A stretch of DNA of 39,206 nt, from the NCBI RefSeq assembly GCF_024623785.1, contig NZ_JANKBZ010000056.1, positions 1 through 39,206 on the forward strand. The letters run 5' to 3'. This DNA comes from Archangium lipolyticum. Lineage in GTDB: Bacteria; Myxococcota; Myxococcia; Myxococcales; Myxococcaceae. Both the position numbers and the translations under genes were made by a program. This document shows positions 23,631 through 33,300 of the stretch, one piece after another (position 1 is the stretch's first letter; each line of letters begins with the position of its first letter). Below the pieces are notes generated by a model. That model was not told the origin of the DNA. It searched no databases and saw only the letters and a program-made list of their open reading frames with translations.

Positions 23631-25151
23631 TCAGCGGTCGAGCAGAGCCACGAGGCGGGCACCCGCCTCGGGGAGCGCGAGTTCTTTTGCCGAAATCTCC
23701 GTGGCGAGCGCTTCGGCGTCGTCGGTTCCCCCGCGTCCGAAGAGCCCCTGGAGCCAGCGGCCCGCTGCGGGGTTGCGCCACCAGTCCTCGTTGAAGCGCC
23801 CGGTGAGCTGCGCGGTGAGCCGCGCCTCCAGGGCCCAGCCGCGCAGGTAGCGCGTCACGTAGAGCTGAGGGTCCACGTCGAAGAGGAAGAAGCCCGGGTG
23901 CGGCTCGACGAAGAGCGCGCGGCGCTGGGCATCCGCGTACTCCTCGGCGCGCTCGGGCGAGGGGCCGCGTGTGTGGAGGGACAGCTCGTAGGGCAGCTTC
24001 GCGCAGTGGCGGCGCAGCACGGTGAGCCCCTGGAAGGCGGCCAGGCGCGTCACGTCGCGGGCGGTGGCCGAGGGCAGGCGCAGGTAGCGCTTGAGCCACT
24101 CCTCTTCCGTGAGGAGCCGCTCGAAGAGGGTGGCGAAGGCCTCGGTGACGGAGGCGTCCCCGAGCCGGCGCAGCTCCAGCGGCAGCTCCTCCTTCACGTG
24201 GGCGTGGTGCAGGGCGTGGCCGTACTCGTGCAGGAGGCTGCCCAGGGCGTCCATTCCCCCGCGCCGCTGGAGGACGAGGCGCACCTCGCCGGGGATGCGC
24301 ACGGAAACGGTGAAGGGGCGCGAGGCCTTGCCGGGGCGCTCCTCGTCGTCGATGCGGATGCGGCCCTGGGCGGCCGGGTGGAAGCCCCACTCGCCGAGCC
24401 AGCGGATGACGGCGGGCAGCTCGTCCTCGCGCTTGAAGAAGCCGCTCATCCACGGGGCCTGGGTGGCCGCCTGCAGGTCGTGCCTGCGCGCGTTGCCCGA
24501 GGGCAGGGGGCGCAGCGTGGGCTCCACCTTCTTGAGCACGTAGCCGAGCACGTCGCGGTAGGCGTCCTCGGTGAGGCGCAGCGTCTCCTGGGCGGCCTCG
24601 GCCAGCTTGTTCAGGTCGATGCCGGAGACGTCCTCGCGCAGGGCGACGTAGCTGGGGGCGCGGAGGCGCTCGGTGACGCGGAAGGAGGCCTCGCGGCGGG
24701 TGCCATAGCGGCCCCGGTTGTCCCAGAGGAAGCCGCCCGTGGCGCTCTCGAGCAGGGCGCGCCGGCCGCGGTTGGGCTCATGGGGGAGCTGGCCGAGCGC
24801 CTCACCGAAGGAGAGGGTCTGGTCATCCACGGGGAGGCGGGCGCGGGCCTCGAGCTGGGCCACGGCCTCGGCCTCGGGGGCGGCGAGGGACTCCTCGACC
24901 TGGGTGGCGATGAAGTCGCGCAGGAGGCGGAGGCGGCGGACGCCGAGCAGGTCGCCCTTGGCCTGCGCCTTGGGGACGGCTTCGGTGGCGGCGGCGAAGG
25001 CCTCGGGGGAGGCGATTTCGGGCGAGTCCTCGTAGAGCTCGCGGAGGGGGAGGTCCGGGGACAGGCCGGCGGCGTGGCGGTAGTGGAGGGTGGCCAGCTG
25101 GGCGAGGAAATCGTCCAGGCTCGCGCGCAGGGAGGGGAGGGGACGGTCCAT
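23631..25151 (-). CDS. M3-like zinc metallopeptidase
   Basis: A 506-aa cytoplasmic peptidase. The zinc site is HEYGH (His308-Glu309-Tyr-Gly-His312) within GSLLHEYGHALHHAHV, and the third ligand lies in VTEAFATLFERLL, the arrangement of M3-type gluzincins. The N-terminal half is all-helical (FLAQLATLHYRHAAGL; LRLLRDFIATQVEESLAA), and the C-terminal part has DVDPQLYVTRYLRGWALEA. There is no signal peptide. It should cleave oligopeptides. ATG 25151 is preferred; a GTG at 25181 would add ten residues. It is convergent with the small basic gene at 23274. Confidence 0.82.
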   Translation of the reverse strand: MDRPLPSLRASLDDFLAQLATLHYRHAAGLSPDLPLRELYEDSPEIASPEAFAAATEAVPKAQAKGDLLGVRRLRLLRDFIATQVEESLAAPEAEAVAQLEARARLPVDDQTLSFGEALGQLPHEPNRGRRALLESATGGFLWDNRGRYGTRREASFRVTERLRAPSYVALREDVSGIDLNKLAEAAQETLRLTEDAYRDVLGYVLKKVEPTLRPLPSGNARRHDLQAATQAPWMSGFFKREDELPAVIRWLGEWGFHPAAQGRIRIDDEERPGKASRPFTVSVRIPGEVRLVLQRRGGMDALGSLLHEYGHALHHAHVKEELPLELRRLGDASVTEAFATLFERLLTEEEWLKRYLRLPSATARDVTRLAAFQGLTVLRRHCAKLPYELSLHTRGPSPERAEEYADAQRRALFVEPHPGFFLFDVDPQLYVTRYLRGWALEARLTAQLTGRFNEDWWRNPAAGRWLQGLFGRGGTDDAEALATEISAKELALPEAGARLVALLDR

Positions 25152-25271
25152 GGGGGGCCGGAAGGTAGACACTTCGTCCACCGGGGAAAAGGCCCGAGGA
25201 AGCCGAGCGTGGCGCGGTGGACCCTCCGTCCCTCTTTCTCTGTCGGTTACCGTGCCACCGTGGACCCGGAT

Positions 25272-25871
25272 TCAGAGGGCACTCGCGGGCAGTGGCCGAG
25301 GTGCGAGCGCGGAGGGCACGGGCCTGCCGAGTTGCTCCATCACCGCCGCGAAGTCCTGGGAATGCTGCCGGAGGGACAGCGTGTCCGTACCGATGATGTA
25401 GCGCTCCTCGATGCGCTTCAGGTCCGGCATGGGGACGACGGGCCGGAGGATGAGGCGCTTGAGGGTGGGCCAGGACAGGCCCGTCATCTGGCAGGCGGCG
25501 GTGACTCCGAGGCGGTGCCACAGCCAGGGCGCCATCTGCTCGACCTCTGTGGTGAAGAGGGAGTCGTGCGCCGCCCAGGTGACGCGCTCCACGCGGACGC
25601 CATGCTCGGGGCACTGCATGCGGCGGGGCGCGTAGCTCAGCCACACCGGCGTGCGCTCCAGCGTGAGATGGCGCCACCGGCGCACCGGCTGCGTGTCGTA
25701 GCCACTCCAGAAGTCGTTACAGACTCCGCACCGGCGCGCGGGCACGCGTAACCGGACGTGCACCACCAGGCCGTGGGGTTGGAGGCTGGCGCCGCGCACG
25801 CGCAGGCCCTCCAGCCCCAGCACTCGCTCCAACGTCTCATTCACTGCCTCATTCACGCCCACGCTCTCCAT
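25272..25871 (-). CDS. Truncated ISL3-type transposase (N-terminal domains only)
   Basis: A 199-aa ORF whose first 150 residues match the N-terminus of ISL3-family transposases: VRLRVPARRCGVC, then WRHLTLERTPVWLSY, RRMQCPEHGVRVERVTWA (a C-x2-C...C zinc-binding region), and the helix-turn-helix QMTGLSWPTLKRL. A full transposase has about 400 residues with a DDE catalytic core; here it stops after IEERYIIGTDTL and an unrelated-looking tail. It cannot transpose by itself. It still has a clean ATG with AAGGGAGA upstream, so a DNA-binding protein may be made. No terminal inverted repeats were found around it. Confidence 0.7.
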   Translation of the reverse strand: MESVGVNEAVNETLERVLGLEGLRVRGASLQPHGLVVHVRLRVPARRCGVCNDFWSGYDTQPVRRWRHLTLERTPVWLSYAPRRMQCPEHGVRVERVTWAAHDSLFTTEVEQMAPWLWHRLGVTAACQMTGLSWPTLKRLILRPVVPMPDLKRIEERYIIGTDTLSLRQHSQDFAAVMEQLGRPVPSALAPRPLPASAL

Positions 25872-25885
25872 CGTCGTTCTCCCTT

Positions 25886-25905
25886 GGAGGGCGTCGTTGC
25901 CCTCC
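25886..25905. promoter_or_regulatory. Perfect inverted repeat upstream of the truncated transposase
   Basis: GGAGGGC (25886-25892) and GCCCTCC (25899-25905) flank GTCGTT. The hairpin lies 15-34 bp before the start codon of the leftward truncated transposase gene, covering its leader. It could be an operator or a translational hairpin. Confidence 0.4.
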
Positions 25906-26055
25906 TACGTGCGGCGGCGCCCGATGCAAGGCGATGGCCAGGAGCCACTCCCGAGGGGAACCCGTGCGCAGTGGAGGGCTCGACCGTCTTGGGTGGGAGA
26001 TGACCGTCCACTCGGAGCGAATCAGGGACGTGAAGGGCTGGTAACCTCCGGAGGG

Positions 26056-27009
26056 ATGAAGCGCCGAACCTTCCGAGTCGAATCTACCCTCACGGGCCGC
26101 ACCGTGAGCGAAGCACTGGCGGCGGAACTGGGCCTGTCTCTCGAGGAGGCGGAGCGCCTGGTGGGCGTGGGCGCGGTGTACGTGGCCGGGCGCCGGTGCC
26201 GGGATGCGAAGACGCGGCTGGTCATGGGGCAGGTGGTGACGGCGGTGTTGGAGGAGGGGGGGGAGAGCCCGCTCGCGGAGGCTCCGGCGCAGGCTCCGAG
26301 CTTCCGCGTGCTGCATGAGGACGCGGATGTCATCGCGGTGGACAAGCCGGCGGGGATGACGGCGCAGCCCACGGAAGGGCGGGTGGGGGACAGTCTGGTG
26401 GACCGGGTGGGCGAGCACTTGAAGACGCCCGCGGGGCTGGTGCACCGGTTGGACCGGGAGACGTCCGGAGTGACGGTGTTTGGCAAGACGCCCCAGGCGA
26501 CGACCGCTCTGGCGGAGGAGTTCCGCGAGGGCCGCGCTCGCAAGCGCTACCTGGCCGCGGTGGGTCCCGTGGAGCTGCCGTCCCAGGGGACCATCGATCT
26601 GCCGCTGTCGAAGGACCCCTCCCGGCCGGGACGCTGGCGCGCCACCCGCGCGGCCAATGGGATTCCCGCGTTCACGGAGTACCGCGTGCTGCACGCGGGC
26701 AAGGACTTCTGTCTGGTGGAGCTGCTTCCCCAGACGGGGCGGACGCACCAGCTGCGCGCTCACCTGACGGCGCTCGGGGCTCCGATTCTTGGAGACAAGC
26801 GCTACGGCGGCGCGGCGAGGGCTGGAGGGATCGAGGCTCCCCGGTGTTTGTTGCACGCGCAGGCGCTGGAGCTGGCGCATCCTCGGACTGGAGTCACCGT
26901 GCGATTCGAAGCTCCCGTACCGGAGGACCTCTCGCGATTCTTCACGGCAGCGGGGATCGTGGCTCCCTCTGGGCTCATTCGTCCACTTGATGCGGCTACC
27001 CGCGGGTAG
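26056..27009 (+). CDS. RluA family pseudouridine synthase
   Basis: A 317-aa enzyme. An S4-like N-terminal domain (TVSEALAAELGLSLEEAERL) precedes the catalytic domain: DVIAVDKPAGM, VHRLDRETSGV with catalytic Asp133, RKRYLAAV, LLPQTGRTHQLRAHL and GDKRYGG. It converts a uridine in rRNA or tRNA to pseudouridine; the target base cannot be read. ATG 26056 is preceded by CCGGAGGG. A second RluA paralogue lies at 37426. The gene ends just before a copy of the dispersed palindrome. Confidence 0.9.
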   Translation: MKRRTFRVESTLTGRTVSEALAAELGLSLEEAERLVGVGAVYVAGRRCRDAKTRLVMGQVVTAVLEEGGESPLAEAPAQAPSFRVLHEDADVIAVDKPAGMTAQPTEGRVGDSLVDRVGEHLKTPAGLVHRLDRETSGVTVFGKTPQATTALAEEFREGRARKRYLAAVGPVELPSQGTIDLPLSKDPSRPGRWRATRAANGIPAFTEYRVLHAGKDFCLVELLPQTGRTHQLRAHLTALGAPILGDKRYGGAARAGGIEAPRCLLHAQALELAHPRTGVTVRFEAPVPEDLSRFFTAAGIVAPSGLIRPLDAATRG

Positions 27010-27017
27010 ACCCTCGA

Positions 27018-27056
27018 TACCCTCACCCCGACCCTCTCCCAGAGGGAGAGGGGATG
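27018..27056. repeat. Dispersed intergenic palindrome, copy 2
   Basis: The first 23 bases (27018-27040) are identical to copy 1. The stem CCCTCTCCC (27032-27040) pairs with GGGAGAGGG (27044-27052) around AGA. It lies between two convergent genes. Confidence 0.8.
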
Positions 27057-27062
27057 TTTCGC

Positions 27063-27566
27063 TCACGGTTTGTTTGAGCGTGACGGAAGGCGCAACCTCC
27101 ACCAGGTCTCACGGCCGGGCTTCCAACGGATGGCCAACACCAGTGTCCGTTGTGGCCGCAGATACCGCAGGCGGAACACCGGCCCTCGTCGCGGTATCAG
27201 TCCCTCGGCCGTCGGACGGAAGCGCAGGCTCACCCGCAGCGACTCCAGTGTCGCCGCCGCTGGAAAGCGGGCCTGGGTCTCCAGCCACCGCGCGAACCGC
27301 CAGCCGTCCGCCATGGGGCCTCCCTCGTGGGGGAGGGGCTCCTCCGCGGCGTATCGGTCGAACAGCGGATGGAACTCGGCGCCGAGCGCTCGTGCCAGCT
27401 CCGGCCAGGTGGCCACCACCGAGTGCTCGCGCTTGTGTGCCAGGGCCTCGGTCGCCGCGCGCACCCGCTCGGGATCGAACCCGGGCGGCAGCTCCTCGTG
27501 GCCCGTCAACGCGGCGAGCAGCGCGGCCTGCGCCCGGGCGAGGGCCTCGCGATCCTCATCCGCCAT
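27063..27566 (-). CDS. MNIO-associated partner protein (SCO6045 C-terminal-domain-like)
   Basis: A 167-aa soluble protein. The N-terminal two-thirds show the pattern of proteins that accompany, or are fused to, MNIO/DUF692 oxidases: ARAQAALLAALTGHEELPPGFD, RVRAATEALAHKREHSV, TWPELARALGAEFHPLFDRYA and GGPMADGWRFARWL. The end is beta-rich (FRLRYLRPQRTLVLAIRWK). Such partners are believed to help recognise the precursor peptide for the iron enzyme that modifies cysteines. Here the TIGR04222 Cys-rich gene lies upstream, but no DUF692 gene is present. ATG 27566 follows GGAAGGAGGTGGCTC. The family match is from memory of the pattern. Confidence 0.65.
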   Translation of the reverse strand: MADEDREALARAQAALLAALTGHEELPPGFDPERVRAATEALAHKREHSVVATWPELARALGAEFHPLFDRYAAEEPLPHEGGPMADGWRFARWLETQARFPAAATLESLRVSLRFRPTAEGLIPRRGPVFRLRYLRPQRTLVLAIRWKPGRETWWRLRLPSRSNKP

Positions 27567-27633
27567 GAGCCACCTCCTTCCGTGTGAGCAGCTCCACGAA
27601 GCCCAGATGCGAGTTGTCGCGCGTCAGCTGCAA
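27556..27633 (-). pseudogene. Possible remnant of a deleted MNIO (DUF692) gene
   Basis: In the 57-bp gap between the TIGR04222 gene and the partner gene, one minus-strand frame reads LQLTRDNSHLGFVELL and TRKEVAHGG before a TGA that overlaps the partner start codon. That overlap is the usual way a real upstream gene would couple to the partner. The peptide looks like a genuine C-terminus. I infer that it may be the tail of the missing MNIO enzyme; a chance frame is also possible. Confidence 0.3.
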
Positions 27634-28481
27634 CCGCCACAACCTCCTCCTCCGCAGCCTCCACCGCAGCCACCGCCACTGCTTCCCCCGTCTCCACCCG
27701 ACGAGGGCGCCGGCATCAGGGCTCGCTGGAGATCCTCGAACTGCGTCCCCGTCAGCGAGGTGGCTCCGAAGAGCCCCACCGCCAGCGCCACGTCACTGCC
27801 AGCGAGCACCGAGGCGTTCGCGCAGACACTGGTACGCAGCGCCTCGTTGCGCTGAGTCAGCTTCTCGAGCGCGGTGTTGCCCCGATTGCTGCGATGGGGT
27901 TTGCGCACGGCGAAGAACAGCGCCGTGCCCAGGACGACGAGACTCATCAGGAACAGGAACCCGACCGGCCGATCCCTCTGCATGCCGATCACCACCTTGG
28001 CGATGCCCACGGCGAACACCCCGAGCATGATCACGCTCGAGTAGAGCGTGATCCTCCCGGAGGTGGTGTCATCGGCGATCAGCTCCAAGCGGAGGAGCCG
28101 GTGTTCCAGCCGCGCACGCAGGGACCCGGCGTTCTTCACCAACTCCTCGATCGTCGCGCCGTTGGCCGAGGCGTGAACCATCGCCTCCAGGGGATGGGGG
28201 CTGGCGTGCAGCTTCTTCTGGACCGTCAGCTCCCGCCCCTCCGGAGTCACCTGGAGGTACTCCTGCCGGACGAGGCTGGCGACCGCGGACTCGACGGCCC
28301 GTTCCATTCCGCCGGAGAGGAAGGAGACCTCGTAGGGGTGGAGATCGGTGATGCGCGGATCCACCGGCCCGTCCGGCCCGAGCAGGTACTTGCGCAGCAA
28401 CCTCGCGCCGAGCCAGGCCGAGATCGCCAGCACGGCGTAGAAGGCGAGGAACTCCGGCCCCGGAAGGTCGAAGGGGTTCAC
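27624..28481 (-). CDS. TIGR04222 domain membrane protein with Gly/Cys-rich tail
   Basis: A 285-aa membrane protein. Membrane segments: FLAFYAVLAISAWLGARLL near the N-terminus, ITLYSSVIMLGVFAVGIA and VGFLFLMSLVVLGTALFFA in the middle. Between them is a cytoplasmic winged-helix-like region (DLHPYEVSFLSGGMERAVES, LVRQEYLQVTPEG). The last 20 residues are Gly/Ser with four cysteines in the pattern GGGCGGGCGGGGCGGC, the mark of TIGR04222 proteins. Proteins with this tail are found beside MNIO/DUF692 enzymes, which modify cysteines, so the tail is a likely modification substrate. The start overlaps the stop of the nucleotidyltransferase gene (ATGA). Confidence 0.82.
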   Translation of the reverse strand: MNPFDLPGPEFLAFYAVLAISAWLGARLLRKYLLGPDGPVDPRITDLHPYEVSFLSGGMERAVESAVASLVRQEYLQVTPEGRELTVQKKLHASPHPLEAMVHASANGATIEELVKNAGSLRARLEHRLLRLELIADDTTSGRITLYSSVIMLGVFAVGIAKVVIGMQRDRPVGFLFLMSLVVLGTALFFAVRKPHRSNRGNTALEKLTQRNEALRTSVCANASVLAGSDVALAVGLFGATSLTGTQFEDLQRALMPAPSSGGDGGSSGGGCGGGCGGGGCGGCS

Positions 28482-29251
28482 AACCGTCCCTCCAACTCAT
28501 GGGCAACGCGTGCGGCACTGTCCAGGCTGGCGAGCACCCGCTCGATGAGCGGCTCGGGCTCATCCAACTCGGCGGTGCCCGCCTTCAGGGACGGGAGCTG
28601 GAGCAGCGCGGAGCCATCCAGCCCGAACGCCGCCGCCGCGGCCTGGAGCACCGCGGCCTCGCCTCCCGTGGGGACGGGGCGGTTGGTGAGGCGCAGCAGC
28701 GTCTCCAACTCGACGACGAGGGGCGCGGTGATGCTCACGAGCTGGGCGGACAGGGTGGCCGGTTCCTCCACGAGCGCGATGTAGCGCCGGCGCAGGCGCA
28801 GCAGCAGGTTGCGCAGCTCCTGCTCCACGCGCAGCCGGATGTGCTCGGGCGAGACGCGCAGGTCGTGGAACGGGTCCTCCCCGGTGAGCACGAGGTGGTG
28901 GCGCTGGATGTCCAGGAAGCGGGTCGGGAACACGTCGGTGGCGTCGGCCACCTCGGAGGGTTTGAGGAGCAGCGGCTCCACCCGCAGGGCCCGCCAGGCC
29001 CGCTTGATGGCGGGCGCGATGTCCCGCAGCTTCGGGGCCGAGGTGTCCCGGAGCAGCACCACCAGGTTCACGTCGCTGGTGCCCTTGCGGTAGCCGCCCC
29101 GGATCGCGCTCCCGAAGACGATGAGCCCGGCCAGGTTGTCACCGGCGGCGCGGGTCAGCTCCTGTTGGAGCTCCTCCAGGATGGGGCGCAGCTCCTCGGG
29201 AAGACGGGGGGCCTCGGTCAGGTCGGGGCGGGTTGCGGTGGAGGGGTTCAC
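28478..29251 (-). CDS. Nucleotidyltransferase-like protein
   Basis: A 257-aa protein. The N-terminal nucleotidyltransferase fold shows LIVFGSAIRGGYRKGTSD with Gly47-Ser48 and then Asp60-Val61-Asn62, where active members have Asp-x-Asp or Glu. A second region is helical (EHIRLRVEQELRNLLLRLRRRYIAL). The Asn in place of the second metal ligand suggests reduced or no catalysis. The first gene of a minus-strand operon; its stop overlaps the start of the TIGR04222 gene. What it modifies, if anything, is unknown. Confidence 0.75.
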   Translation of the reverse strand: MNPSTATRPDLTEAPRLPEELRPILEELQQELTRAAGDNLAGLIVFGSAIRGGYRKGTSDVNLVVLLRDTSAPKLRDIAPAIKRAWRALRVEPLLLKPSEVADATDVFPTRFLDIQRHHLVLTGEDPFHDLRVSPEHIRLRVEQELRNLLLRLRRRYIALVEEPATLSAQLVSITAPLVVELETLLRLTNRPVPTGGEAAVLQAAAAAFGLDGSALLQLPSLKAGTAELDEPEPLIERVLASLDSAARVAHELEGRL

Positions 29252-29293
29252 TCGGTCTGCTCCAGTCTGATGCCCCGGAGGTTACACCAAGGC

Positions 29294-30310
29294 TCAAGCG
29301 GCACAGGTGAAGTGCACGCCCTCGACCCAGCCGAGCGCCGTCAGAGCGCCGCGAATCTCCTCCCGGATGCCTCGCACGCCCACCGCCGCCACCAGGTGCG
29401 TGTCCTCCGGCGGTGTGCCCAGGGACTCCGGTGGATCCACCGGAATCCCGTGGATGCGCGTGCCCACCTTGCGCGGGTGCACGTCGATGAAGCGCTCCAC
29501 CCGGGCTCCCTCCGCGAGCAGGAAGCGCGTGAGGATGAGCCCTCCCGGACCCGTGCCCCACACCGTCAGCGGCCGCCCGGCCACCTCCGGGCTGCGCGCC
29601 AGGTAGTGCGCCTTCACCCAGATGAAGCGCTTGTGCGCGTACCTCGGATCCGTGCGCGTCAGCCGTCCCGTGCTGTCCCTCCACCGCAGCAGCACCTCGG
29701 GCAGGTTGTGCATCCGGTGGCCGGATTCGATGAGCTTCAACCAGAGGTGGTAGTCCTCCGGGAAGTCGCCGTGTGCCCAGCCCCCGGCCGCCACCACCGC
29801 CTCCCTCCGCAGGCACACCGAGGGGTGACAGATGGGGCTCTCCACGAAGCGCTCGCGGTGGAGCCGCTCGGGGGTGGTGAGGCCGTTGAGCCACGTCGCG
29901 TAGTCCCTCATCGAGGGGCTCACCGGCTGATCCTCCCGGAACAGCTCCACGCCCGTGCCCACGCCGCCCAGCCCGGGGTCCGCCTCCAGCGCCGCGACGC
30001 TCGCCTCCAGCCGCCGGGGCAGCGCCTCGTCATCCGCGTCCATGCGCGCCACGTAGGGGGAGGTGGCATGCGCCAGCGCGAGGTTGAGCGCGGCGACGAG
30101 CCCCCGGCCTCCCCCGTCCAGCACCTCCACCCGGGCGTCCCTCGCCGCCAGCCCCCGCAGCACCTCGCGCGTGCCGTCCGTGGAGCCGTCGTCCACCGCC
30201 AGCACCTGGATTTCACGCAACGTGCCTCCGAGGAGGCTCTCCACGGCGCGTGCCACGGTGCGCTCGGCGTTTCGGGCGGGGAGGAGGACGGTGACGACCG
30301 GAGGCGGCAT
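29294..30310 (-). CDS. GT2 family glycosyltransferase with extra C-terminal nucleotide-binding-like domain
   Basis: A 338-aa protein. The GT-A fold occupies about 1-230: VTVLLPARNAERTV, VDDGSTDGTREVL, MDADDEALP (metal-binding DxD) and FPEDYHLWLKL with the catalytic-acid ED motif. After about residue 245 a separate domain begins, LTVWGTGPGGLILTRFL, with a glycine-rich loop and a Rossmann-like strand pattern (FIDVHPRKVG). It has no membrane segment. Transfer of a sugar from a nucleotide sugar in exopolysaccharide or lipopolysaccharide assembly is likely. It is divergent from the TPR protein gene, with only 21 bp between the starts. Confidence 0.85.
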   Translation of the reverse strand: MPPPVVTVLLPARNAERTVARAVESLLGGTLREIQVLAVDDGSTDGTREVLRGLAARDARVEVLDGGGRGLVAALNLALAHATSPYVARMDADDEALPRRLEASVAALEADPGLGGVGTGVELFREDQPVSPSMRDYATWLNGLTTPERLHRERFVESPICHPSVCLRREAVVAAGGWAHGDFPEDYHLWLKLIESGHRMHNLPEVLLRWRDSTGRLTRTDPRYAHKRFIWVKAHYLARSPEVAGRPLTVWGTGPGGLILTRFLLAEGARVERFIDVHPRKVGTRIHGIPVDPPESLGTPPEDTHLVAAVGVRGIREEIRGALTALGWVEGVHFTCAA

Positions 30311-30331
30311 CCTGTGTAGACTGCCCCACCC

Positions 30332-33300
30332 ATGGGTGGCGTGAGAAACGGCAAGGACGCCGGTTCACCGGAAACGGCAGATGCGCGTCAGCGCTCGCCC
30401 GCTGGCATGCCCCCGTCCAGGGAAGGTGTGGACGTGCCCGATCTCGTGGAGCGGCACCGCCAGAATGCCTCCCGCCTGTTGAACGAGGGGCAGGCGGCGC
30501 GGGCCTTCGGAGAGCTGGTGCGGGCCAGCCGCTCCCTGCCCATGACGCCGCGCCTGGCCGCGGTGCTCGTCGCCTTCTCGCTGCGGGCGGGGACCGAGGC
30601 CGCCGCCATCGCCCTCCTGTCCTCCTCCCTCGGCAACACCCGGGGGGACACCCGCCGCGCCGTGCGGCTCCAGCTCGCGCGCTTGCTGCGCCGGGTGAAC
30701 CAGCTCCCTCGCGCCATCGAGGCGCTCCAGGCGCTCGTCGACGAGTCCCCCGGAGACCGCCACGCCCGCCGGCTCCTCGAGGTCATCTTCCGCGGCATCG
30801 GTCGGGAGAAGCCGCCTCCCGGCCCCTCCGCTTCCCTGGAAGCGCGGGCATCCAAGCCTCGGGAGGCGCACGCCGCCGAGGATCCGCTCCATCGGAGCGA
30901 GACCATCGAGTTCTCCTCGCCCTGGATGGAAGACGAGCACACGGCGGAGGCCTTCGGCCCGCCGGATACGCGGTTCGCGCCTCGCGCTCCCCAGCCCCGG
31001 GCCAGGGCCGCCGCGGAGCCTTCCCCCGAGTCGCCGCGCACCGTCCTCGAGATGCCCGCCGTCTGGTCTCAGGACGAGGTGACTTCCGGGGCCGAGCTGC
31101 CATTCGGGGTCGCCCTGGCTCCTTCCTCCCCCCCTCGGGACGACTCCGCCGGGGCGGCCTTCAGCCACCGCCGCCTGACCCTCGAGGTCCCCACCGTCCG
31201 GCCCGAGGCGGCTCCCGCCAGGACTCCGGTTTCCCGGCTCGAGGCCCCGCTCGTTCCGCCACCCGCCGGGCTCAAGGCCAACGCGCCCGTTCCCTGGAGC
31301 GGCGACGAGGACACCGAGCCCTCGCGCCAGCTGGTGCCCCGGCAGGAGGACCCGGAAGAGGCGCGCCAGGAGGCCCAGCTCATCGCGCGCCGGGCGTGGC
31401 GCGAGCTGGCGCAGTTCTACCTGGCACGTGCCGATCGGGCGAAGGACCTGGTGGTCCGCACGGACATCCTCACGCGGCTCGCCGAGCTGTTGGAGGACGA
31501 GCTGAGGGATCTGGCGGGCGCCGCCCGGGTGTACGGGCAGATCGTCGCCCTCACGGGAGACAAGGCCGCGCTCGCGGAGCAGGTGCGGCTGGTGTCCCAG
31601 CGCGAGGACGGCGACGAGTGGGTGGTGCTGCGCGTGCTCGACGAGGCGGTGCAGCGCGCGAGCAACCCCCGGGCCCGTGCCGCGGCCTTCCTGGCTCGCG
31701 GCGAGCGGCTGCTGTCCACCGGCGAGGTGGCCCGGGCGCGCGCGGACTTCGAGGCGGCGGCGGCCATCAACCCCGGCTCGCTCCTGGCGCTGATGGGGCT
31801 CGCCCGGTGCGCGCCCGAGGCGGACCGGGCCCGTGCCACCGAGCGCCTGCGCGTGGCGCTCGCCGCCGTACCCCGGCGCTCGCCCTACCGGGTGGAGGGC
31901 TTGCGGTGCCTCGCCGAGGTTTCCGGAGGGTCCCTCGCCAACGCGAAGCTCGCGTACTGGGCGTGGACGGAGGTGCTCGCGGAGAGCCCCGAGGACGTGC
32001 ACGCCCAGGACAAGCTCCTGGATCTGTCGCGGCAGCTCGGGGACAAGGCCGGGTTCAGCCGCCTGCTGCGCGCCCGCATCGAACGGGAGCCGCGAGGGCT
32101 GGTGGCGCGCAAGGCCCGGCTGGAGTTGGTGTCCACGCTGGAGGCCCTGGGAGAGCGCGAGGCCGCGCTCGCCGAGCTGCGCCAGGCGGTGCGCTTCGAG
32201 CCCGGTCACAAGGAGGCCTGGCTGCTGCTCGTGGACCGGCTCATCGCGCTCAAGCAGCACGGCGAGGCCGCGTGGGCCCTGGAGCACGCCGCCACCGCCA
32301 CCGAGGACGATGAGGAGCGCCTCGGGGCCTGGGCTCGCCTGGCGCGTTTCTGCCGCGAGACGCTCGGGGACGCGGCCCGCGCGCAGGTGTACGCCAACCG
32401 GGCGGAGAACCTTCGCAAGGCCATCTCGGAGCGAGCGGCGCCCACGCTGCACCCCGAGCCGCCTCGCAGCGCCGTCCCCAAGCGCGAGTCGAGCGGTCCC
32501 CGCACCGGCGTCCTCATTCCTCCGCCCGGCGCGGTGGAGCTCACGCCCACTCCGGCGGCGCCAGCGGCCCCGCCACCCGCCGCCGGGCTGGAGTCGGCGC
32601 GCACGGTCCTTGAGATGCCCGCGGTCGGCGCCAGGGTGTCCGAGCCCGCGCCCGCCCCTGCCCCGGCGCTCGAACCTCCCGACGCGCCGGTGCCCGTGGA
32701 GAGCACCCGGGTCATCGCCTGGGAGGCGCCTCCCGGGAAGATGGACCCCGTGCGCCGCCGTGCCCGGGGCGAGCATCCCGTCCCCGTGGCGCCTCCCGCG
32801 CCCGTGGTGCCTCCCGCTCCGGTGAGCGCCGTCAAGCCCGCACCGGCTCCGGCGCAGGCGGAGGCGCGGCCGGCGGCCATCGAGCGCGTGCGCGAGCGTC
32901 CGCTCGAGGCGGCCGCCTACCGGGAGCTCTCGGCCTTCTTCGTGGGCCGGGGCGACACGGCGCGTGGCTCGCTGATGGCGGAAGTGGCCTCGGCGCTCGA
33001 GGGCGGCGGGAAGGACGCCGTCCTCCGGCCTCCGCGCCGGACGCTCACCCCCGAGGAGCGCGCGGGCCTGCGCCATCCCGGCCTGCGCAACCCGGCGGGC
33101 GAGCTGCTCGCCTCCGTGGGCCTCGCCCTCTGCCGCCTCTTCCCCACCTTCGGACGGGCGGCGGGCTCCAACGAGCCCCTCCGCTCGGACGTGGGTCCCG
33201 GAGCACGGGCCGCCCAGGAGGCGCTGCTGTTCGTCTCGCGCATCCTCGATGTGCCGATTCCGGAGGTCTTCCTCTCCGAGGACGAGGGCCCGCCCTTCAC

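Follow-up and report, generated by a model that had tools for sequence, protein, structure and literature searches.

A TIGR04222 module without an MNIO gene in Archangium lipolyticum, and a candidate enzyme at a second locus

The window analysed here is the whole of contig C56 (NZ_JANKBZ010000056.1; 39,206 nucleotides) of the 12.6-Mb, 75-contig genome of Archangium lipolyticum (GCF_024623785.1; hereafter G000), and its element of interest is a module that encodes, in order, a nucleotidyltransferase-like protein (P0003), a cysteine-tailed TIGR04222 membrane protein (P0002) and a small presumed partner protein (P0001) of the iron oxidases known as MNIO or DUF692. This locus is a variant of the known TIGR04222-MNIO clusters, and the MNIO gene is missing from it. 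A second locus, on contig C2 of the same genome, has a TIGR04222 gene and an MNIO gene without a partner, and the two loci thus form a complementary split, with partner and no enzyme at C56 and enzyme and no partner at C2. The best-supported reading, to which we give a probability of roughly 0.5, is that the module lost its MNIO and that the resident C2 enzyme may act on it in trans together with P0001. The parts of the module are as follows.

28478-29251, minus strand: P0003, nucleotidyltransferase-like, 257 residues, first gene of the module (NTP_transf_2 at 20.4 bits, just below the cut-off of 21)
27624-28481, minus strand: P0002, TIGR04222 membrane protein, 285 residues, presumed substrate (148.1 bits against a cut-off of 43)
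27627-27704, minus strand: Gly/Ser/Cys C-terminal tail of P0002, with four Cys and the end CGGGGCGGCS (from the translation)
27567-27623, minus strand: 57-bp gap, occupied in most relatives by the MNIO gene and lying within the frame LTRDNSHLGFVELLTRKEVAHGG (12 bp in G003)
27592-27606, minus strand: 15-nt match of the LGFVE codons, exact and in frame, to the N-terminus of the resident MNIO; possible remnant
27063-27566, minus strand: P0001, presumed MNIO partner protein, 167 residues, the genome's only match to the partner profile

The end of P0003 overlaps the GTG start of P0002 by 4 bp. The TIGR04222 match of P0002 spans positions 1-228 of the 229 in the model, and the protein ends in ...SSGGGCGGGCGGGGCGGCS. 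A sequence-only reading of this DNA had described a Cys-tailed TIGR04222 gene lying directly before its partner across a 57-bp gap, with no DUF692 gene between them, and coordinates and profile scores bear this out; the same interval also holds P0003, which that reading did not mention. P0001 matched no Pfam or NCBIfam family, and the label 'SCO6045-like' is thus not confirmed for it.

The absence of the enzyme was also correctly seen as a departure from the norm. In a survey of 195 Myxococcota genomes, TIGR04222 was found above its cut-off 43 times in 32 genomes, and a partner-family profile, built on 19 of 30 sequences, gave 31 matches in 30 genomes; MNIO positions were then searched in 33 genomes, including all 30 with a partner. 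Right behind an MNIO gene stand 28 of the 31 partner matches (27 at 39-291 bp, plus that of G072), the exceptions being G000, its relative G003 and a 71-residue fragment at G008:C820. Because the partner family otherwise has its place right after MNIO genes, in 28 of 30 genomes though not in G000 itself, the missing enzyme at C56 is a real departure. An intact P0001-type gene without an adjoining MNIO was seen only in G000 and in G003, its closest relative examined. The MNIO of G072 was at first without a P0001 match, and the partner profile then found a short partner behind it; the MNIOs at G130:C44 and G135:C22 have no P0001 match, share 32-34% identity with the C2 MNIO and lack a TIGR04222 match in the stretches read around them. 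An assembly fault behind the layout is unlikely, since G003 shows the identical arrangement with 84% (TIGR04222) and 92% (partner) identity; its nucleotidyltransferase is 93% identical.

The search for DUF692 genes proposed by the sequence-only reading gave seven PF05114 matches in G000, none of them on C56 and hence none in the cluster of P0002. Only one adjoins a TIGR04222 gene: G000 has a second such gene at C2:490146, followed directly by the MNIO gene at G000:C2:491111-491893. G003 has three DUF692 matches, of which again only the C2-type one adjoins TIGR04222, so that in both genomes this is the sole MNIO beside a gene of the presumed substrate family. In each, the TIGR04222-MNIO pair has no partner within 1 kb, and the profile search found one partner match per genome and no second. 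The resident C2 MNIO is a full-length protein and agrees with the columns that are invariant among 17 aligned MNIOs, itself included. It is important to note that the congeners G001, G002 and G005 have their TIGR04222-MNIO-partner locus at another position, and that only the TIGR04222 and MNIO genes of the C2 locus match theirs; with the flanks differing in this way, the idea that the resident locus lost a partner while at its ancestral site was considered and is not shown.

We hypothesize that the C56 module was acquired together with an MNIO gene of its own, that this gene was then deleted, and that the resident C2 MNIO, with P0001, would oxidise Cys residues in the TIGR04222 tails of both C2 and C56. 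The most likely products would be metal-binding heterocycles of the thiooxazole type. One MNIO system would in this way extend over two loci after a reciprocal absence of enzyme and partner. Deletion of the enzyme and action of an enzyme encoded elsewhere had been put forward as alternatives; the two are not exclusive, and the data favour both together. Action across loci has been suggested for bufferins in the text of Antoine et al. 2025 (PMC12452194), where some precursors are possibly modified by MNIOs of another locus.

That the module lost an MNIO, by whatever route, we regard as likely. Whether the gap still carries a piece of it is a finer question, on which the evidence is divided. The frame LTRDNSHLGFVELLTRKEVAHGG does exist, beginning with a CTG that overlaps the TIGR04222 stop and stopping at a TGA located just within the partner gene, but its proposed origin as the C-terminal tail of a deleted MNIO is rejected, the gap peptide giving p values of 0.76-0.77 against the C-terminal part of a profile of 17 MNIOs (out of 30 sequences). 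The same profile scores the peptide best at the N-terminal motif LGFVEVL. Of 1500 in-frame coding controls 4 scored at least as high, and of 1500 any-frame controls 13 did (p 0.003-0.009), a resemblance of moderate significance. The N-terminus was examined after the motif had been noticed, for which the whole-protein p values allow. A shuffled-peptide control gave p 0.008, and the 15-nt exact match had p 0.005 against any DNA and 0.004 when restricted to MNIO N-termini. The comparison of the gap with MNIOs for LGFVE match and phase covered 29 of 30 rows. The MNIO gene stands behind TIGR04222 in the phase of the gap frame in 27 of 29 loci, the exceptions being G130 and G029, the latter nearest by partner.

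Several observations weigh against a remnant. A BLOSUM-based test of the gap peptide was weaker (p 0.17 for the best score, 0.03 for the mean), and the 15-nt stretch, as the longest in-frame exact match, reaches only p 0.041 against in-frame coding DNA. Seven codons precede LGFVE in the gap and about 20 or more do so in MNIOs, so that a remnant requires a second, N-terminal deletion. The gap of G003 is without 45 nt (15 codons) and has no LGFVE match; the comparison with relatives called for by the sequence-only reading thus speaks in part against its remnant while leaving enzyme loss standing. Taken together, we judge it somewhat better than an even chance that the gap holds an N-terminal MNIO remnant.

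The flanks of the module speak to its origin. Outside it lie the following genes.

29294-30310, minus strand: family-2 glycosyltransferase (at least 91% identity in the other five genomes of the genus examined)
25897-27009, plus strand: RluA-family pseudouridine synthase (family match)

The glycosyltransferase gene is present in all six genomes examined of the genus, and RluA lies near it in G001, G004 and G005, though not within the stretch read for G002. Beside the glycosyltransferase of G001, G002, G004 and G005 there is no TIGR04222, nucleotidyltransferase or partner match. With the glycosyltransferase kept in six genomes and the module in two, this site is therefore variable, and the module was either inserted there or replaced other DNA. 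When the site (27010-29293) is set against L118-L121, the module appears in two species, DNA common to both in G001 and G005, and other DNA in G004. Phylogenetic trees place the C2 TIGR04222 protein among its counterparts from G001, G002 and G005 (100/99), and the C2 MNIO joins the MNIOs of these three genomes and of G008 (81/87). P0002 and P0001 fall outside these groups; P0001 groups with the partner of G029 (94/94), itself a long branch. These trees were built without G002b and G131b (TIGR04222) and without G072 (partner). We infer that the C56 module was probably acquired and came to lie beside a resident TIGR04222-MNIO system. Its original gene order is less sure, a point that counts against the proposed history: G029 has the order TIGR04222-nucleotidyltransferase-MNIO-partner and a different phase, so the ancestral order is uncertain.

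Comparison of G000 with G003 gave dN/dS values of 0.42 for P0002, 0.20 for P0001 and 0.24 for P0003. At the resident C2 locus the values are 0.37 (TIGR04222) and 0.25 (MNIO), and three flanking genes range over 0.12-0.21. G003 retains every one of the four Cys in the P0002 tail. The module is under constraint, with P0002 constrained to about the same degree as its MNIO-linked paralogue. A freshly decaying locus is rejected at these values (0.20-0.42).

The proposal that the C2 enzyme acts in trans is argued from genome content, and further points tell against it. MNIO-free TIGR04222 genes are common: 12 of the 43 in our survey have no MNIO within 3 kb, some trivially, for example at contig ends, and the text of PMC12452194 counts 490 of 1372 TIGR04222 genomes without MNIO. 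That source also describes many TIGR04222-MNIO clusters as appearing without partner genes, and the resident MNIO may therefore need none. Identity between P0001 and the partners of G001, G002 and G005 is only 44-47%, so the fit of P0001 with the resident enzyme is not assured. Nor is homology of the partner family to DUF2063 partners established. The DUF2063 signature had no match in 19 members of the family, and hhalign of the partner profile with an alignment of proteins that follow buf-type MNIOs (13 of 16 used) gave a probability of 3.4% (E 0.013 as printed) over one collinear stretch of 85 columns. A PDB sequence search with the partner profile gave no match up to E 1, and a single-sequence structure model of P0001 was too poor for use (mean pLDDT 46.7).

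Two other accounts of the locus are, like the rest considered here, not exclusive of one another. P0002 might be an unmodified, MNIO-independent TIGR04222 protein, with P0001 kept in or recruited to another role such as that of a tail chaperone. The MNIO-free genes just mentioned, in Myxococcota and in the counts of PMC12452194, speak for it, as do the orphan Cys-tailed TIGR04222 genes of L039, L113 and L114, and one of reduced length in L045, with no MNIO, partner or radical SAM match in the stretches read, and the stability of the C56 layout under purifying selection in two species. Yet in 28 of 30 genomes the P0001 family is linked to MNIO, the tail has kept its four Cys, and its end CGGCS is also that of MNIO-linked TIGR04222 proteins in G130, G131 and G146; we hold this account to be somewhat unlikely. 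Alternatively, the module never had an MNIO, the partner having been joined to a nucleotidyltransferase-TIGR04222 pair by recombination, and the LGFVE match would be due to chance. Such a pair exists in G041, whose genome has no MNIO match, and the G003 gap without LGFVE, the weakness of some remnant tests and the unlike gene order of G029 would all be explained. On the other hand, G029 does hold TIGR04222, nucleotidyltransferase, MNIO and partner together, with the very partner that groups with P0001 (on its long branch), and the LGFVE match falls in the MNIO phase of 27 of 29 loci. We consider this origin unlikely.

Two further possibilities turn on the nucleotidyltransferase. Radical SAM/SPASM genes stand in three of the five other nucleotidyltransferase-TIGR04222 loci described below, and an enzyme of this type encoded elsewhere in G000 could modify P0002, as suggested for related cassettes in other lineages. 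However, the best G000 match to the G041 enzyme (29% identity, 64 bits) is no better than those of G001, G002 and G005; the linked enzyme of G163 scores 316 bits, and the four radical SAM loci have no P0001-type match, which makes this explanation improbable. A nucleotidyltransferase beside a membrane protein can also be a defence pair, in which case P0003 would make a nucleotide signal, P0002 would be its membrane effector and the Cys tail would be incidental. PADLOC does relate P0003 to the candidate family PDC-S09 (6.2e-10, 37.4 bits) and P0002, weakly, to the effector family '4TM' (2.5e-4, 18.2 bits), but these are partial or weak similarities, Asn takes the place of the second acidic residue in all seven nucleotidyltransferase sequences aligned, and the other five nucleotidyltransferase-TIGR04222 loci carry maturase genes. 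We think a defence pair very improbable. The preferred reading thus remains a module that lost its MNIO and is perhaps served by the resident one.

The nucleotidyltransferase-like protein itself has the motif GS...SDVN, with Asn at the second acidic position, where a second catalytic acidic residue (D-x-D) would be expected. The form SDxN recurs in all seven aligned sequences (P0003 and its homologues in L032, L034, L044, L011, L012 and L013), which suggests altered or lost catalysis. The P0003 score of 20.4 bits, against the gathering cut-off of 21, compares with 22.6 for its homologue in G041. In the tails, GGCGG is invariant in 12 of 12 aligned TIGR04222 proteins and GGCGGC is found in 11. 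CGGCGG..D is the ending of many MNIO-linked tails (L032-L115) and CGGCS that of some; the radical SAM-linked G041 and G163 and the orphan G001b have repeated CGG ends without D, and the orphans G123b and G124b do end in D.

Homologues of P0003 also lie beside TIGR04222 genes in G003, G041, G029, L011, L012 and L013. The last three are all the loci that a genome scan with P0002 gave, in records titled Nitrospirae, Alphaproteobacteria and Victivallales metagenome-assembled genomes, and each has the P0003 homologue just upstream of TIGR04222. Downstream follows a radical SAM/SPASM gene in L011, likewise in L013 with one intervening gene, and an MNIO gene in L012. In G041 the order is radical SAM-nucleotidyltransferase-TIGR04222, and in G163 TIGR04222 is accompanied by a radical SAM gene (51% identity to that of G041), with no nucleotidyltransferase match. 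A maturase gene is thus present in five of the seven nucleotidyltransferase-TIGR04222 loci (two MNIO, three radical SAM), those without being G000 and G003, and four of these five lie outside the family of G000. Since this is a small sample gathered through P0002, the frequencies are not general. Against TIGR04082 (SbtM; cut-off 350 bits) the L011 enzyme reaches 537 bits and the L013 enzyme 492, while the G041 and G163 enzymes, at 128 and 125, stay below the cut-off. No radical SAM match accompanies the MNIO-free TIGR04222 genes of L039, L045, L113, L114 and L115, and no radical SAM gene of this kind lies in the window. Radical SAM/SPASM genes near MNIO-free TIGR04222 genes were noted at L034:2462-3532, L110:3245-2232 (minus strand), L011:5872-6987 and L013:7616-8674, in different lineages. 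Plasmid searches gave one distant TIGR04222 record (Gloeothece) and no nucleotidyltransferase match.

SbtM is reported, in a review (PMC11002830), to make thiooxazole from Cys, and bufferin MNIO and partner are described as oxidising Cys to the same product (PMC12452194). As both enzymes are reported to make thiooxazole, we would predict it on TIGR04222 tails, this being our main ground for that product. It is tempting to speculate that nucleotidyltransferase-TIGR04222 cassettes are a cross-phylum modification system in which MNIO and SbtM-type radical SAM enzymes, two unrelated kinds of iron enzyme, are interchangeable, both forming one and the same thiooxazole from Cys in the tail of a membrane protein, and that in the genus of G000 this slot has been emptied, with the resident MNIO acting in trans via the acquired partner. 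We offer this tentatively, as possible rather than probable. The interchangeable-maturase pattern is nevertheless a more interesting lead than the locus itself: if two unrelated enzymes do fill one slot, the tail chemistry becomes predictable as thiooxazole and testable. The locus, for its part, has enzyme and partner genetically separate with two candidate substrates, and so offers a clean test of whether an MNIO needs its partner and can act across loci.

The nearest described relatives of the C56 locus are the TIGR04222-MNIO clusters with PME-type 2 partners (PMC12452194), with which it shares a Gly/Ser/Cys-tailed membrane protein and a small partner-like gene that bears no Pfam signature; the same text also describes TIGR04222 loci free of MNIO. 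Unlike those clusters, C56 has no intervening MNIO and is led by a nucleotidyltransferase-like gene, and G000 has a second locus with MNIO but no partner. The main text of the paper has neither 'nucleotidyltransferase' nor 'SPASM', and 'radical SAM' only in its references; in it, the role of TIGR04222 tails, and whether MNIOs modify them, are described as open. The bufferin system (BufA/BufB/BufC) is alike in that an MNIO and a partner oxidise Cys (PMC12452194). It differs in its precursors, which have Sec signal peptides, and in its partners, which have a DUF2063 domain not found in P0001; Pfam does find DUF2063 in the protein behind the C18 MNIO of G000. The SbtM (TIGR04082) thio(seleno)oxazole system is likened to these loci by the L011 and L013 enzymes above cut-off near TIGR04222, with none in the window. 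A literature search by title and abstract openings (MNIO, nucleotidyltransferase, partner, in trans, SbtM, thiooxazole), with most subscription papers outside its scope, found the arrangement absent among the matches listed.

Some smaller observations concern related loci and the surroundings of the module. In G015 (L040:4151-8305, minus strand) four consecutive TIGR04222 genes are followed by one MNIO and one partner. The stretches of 8-10 kb that hold the orphan Cys-tailed TIGR04222 genes of L039, L113 and L114 gave no match to MNIO, partner or radical SAM, and a full locus is present elsewhere in these genomes. Hydropathy on 41 proteins gave three membrane segments in only six and four or five in the others. 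An Rfam scan of 25000-31000 at gathering thresholds found nothing. Finally, a 199-residue frame at 25272-25871 (minus strand), which has only zinc-ribbon and helix-turn-helix matches of ISL3 transposases and is 92% identical in G003 at the same place, suggests a fragment or domesticated piece of an ISL3 transposase.

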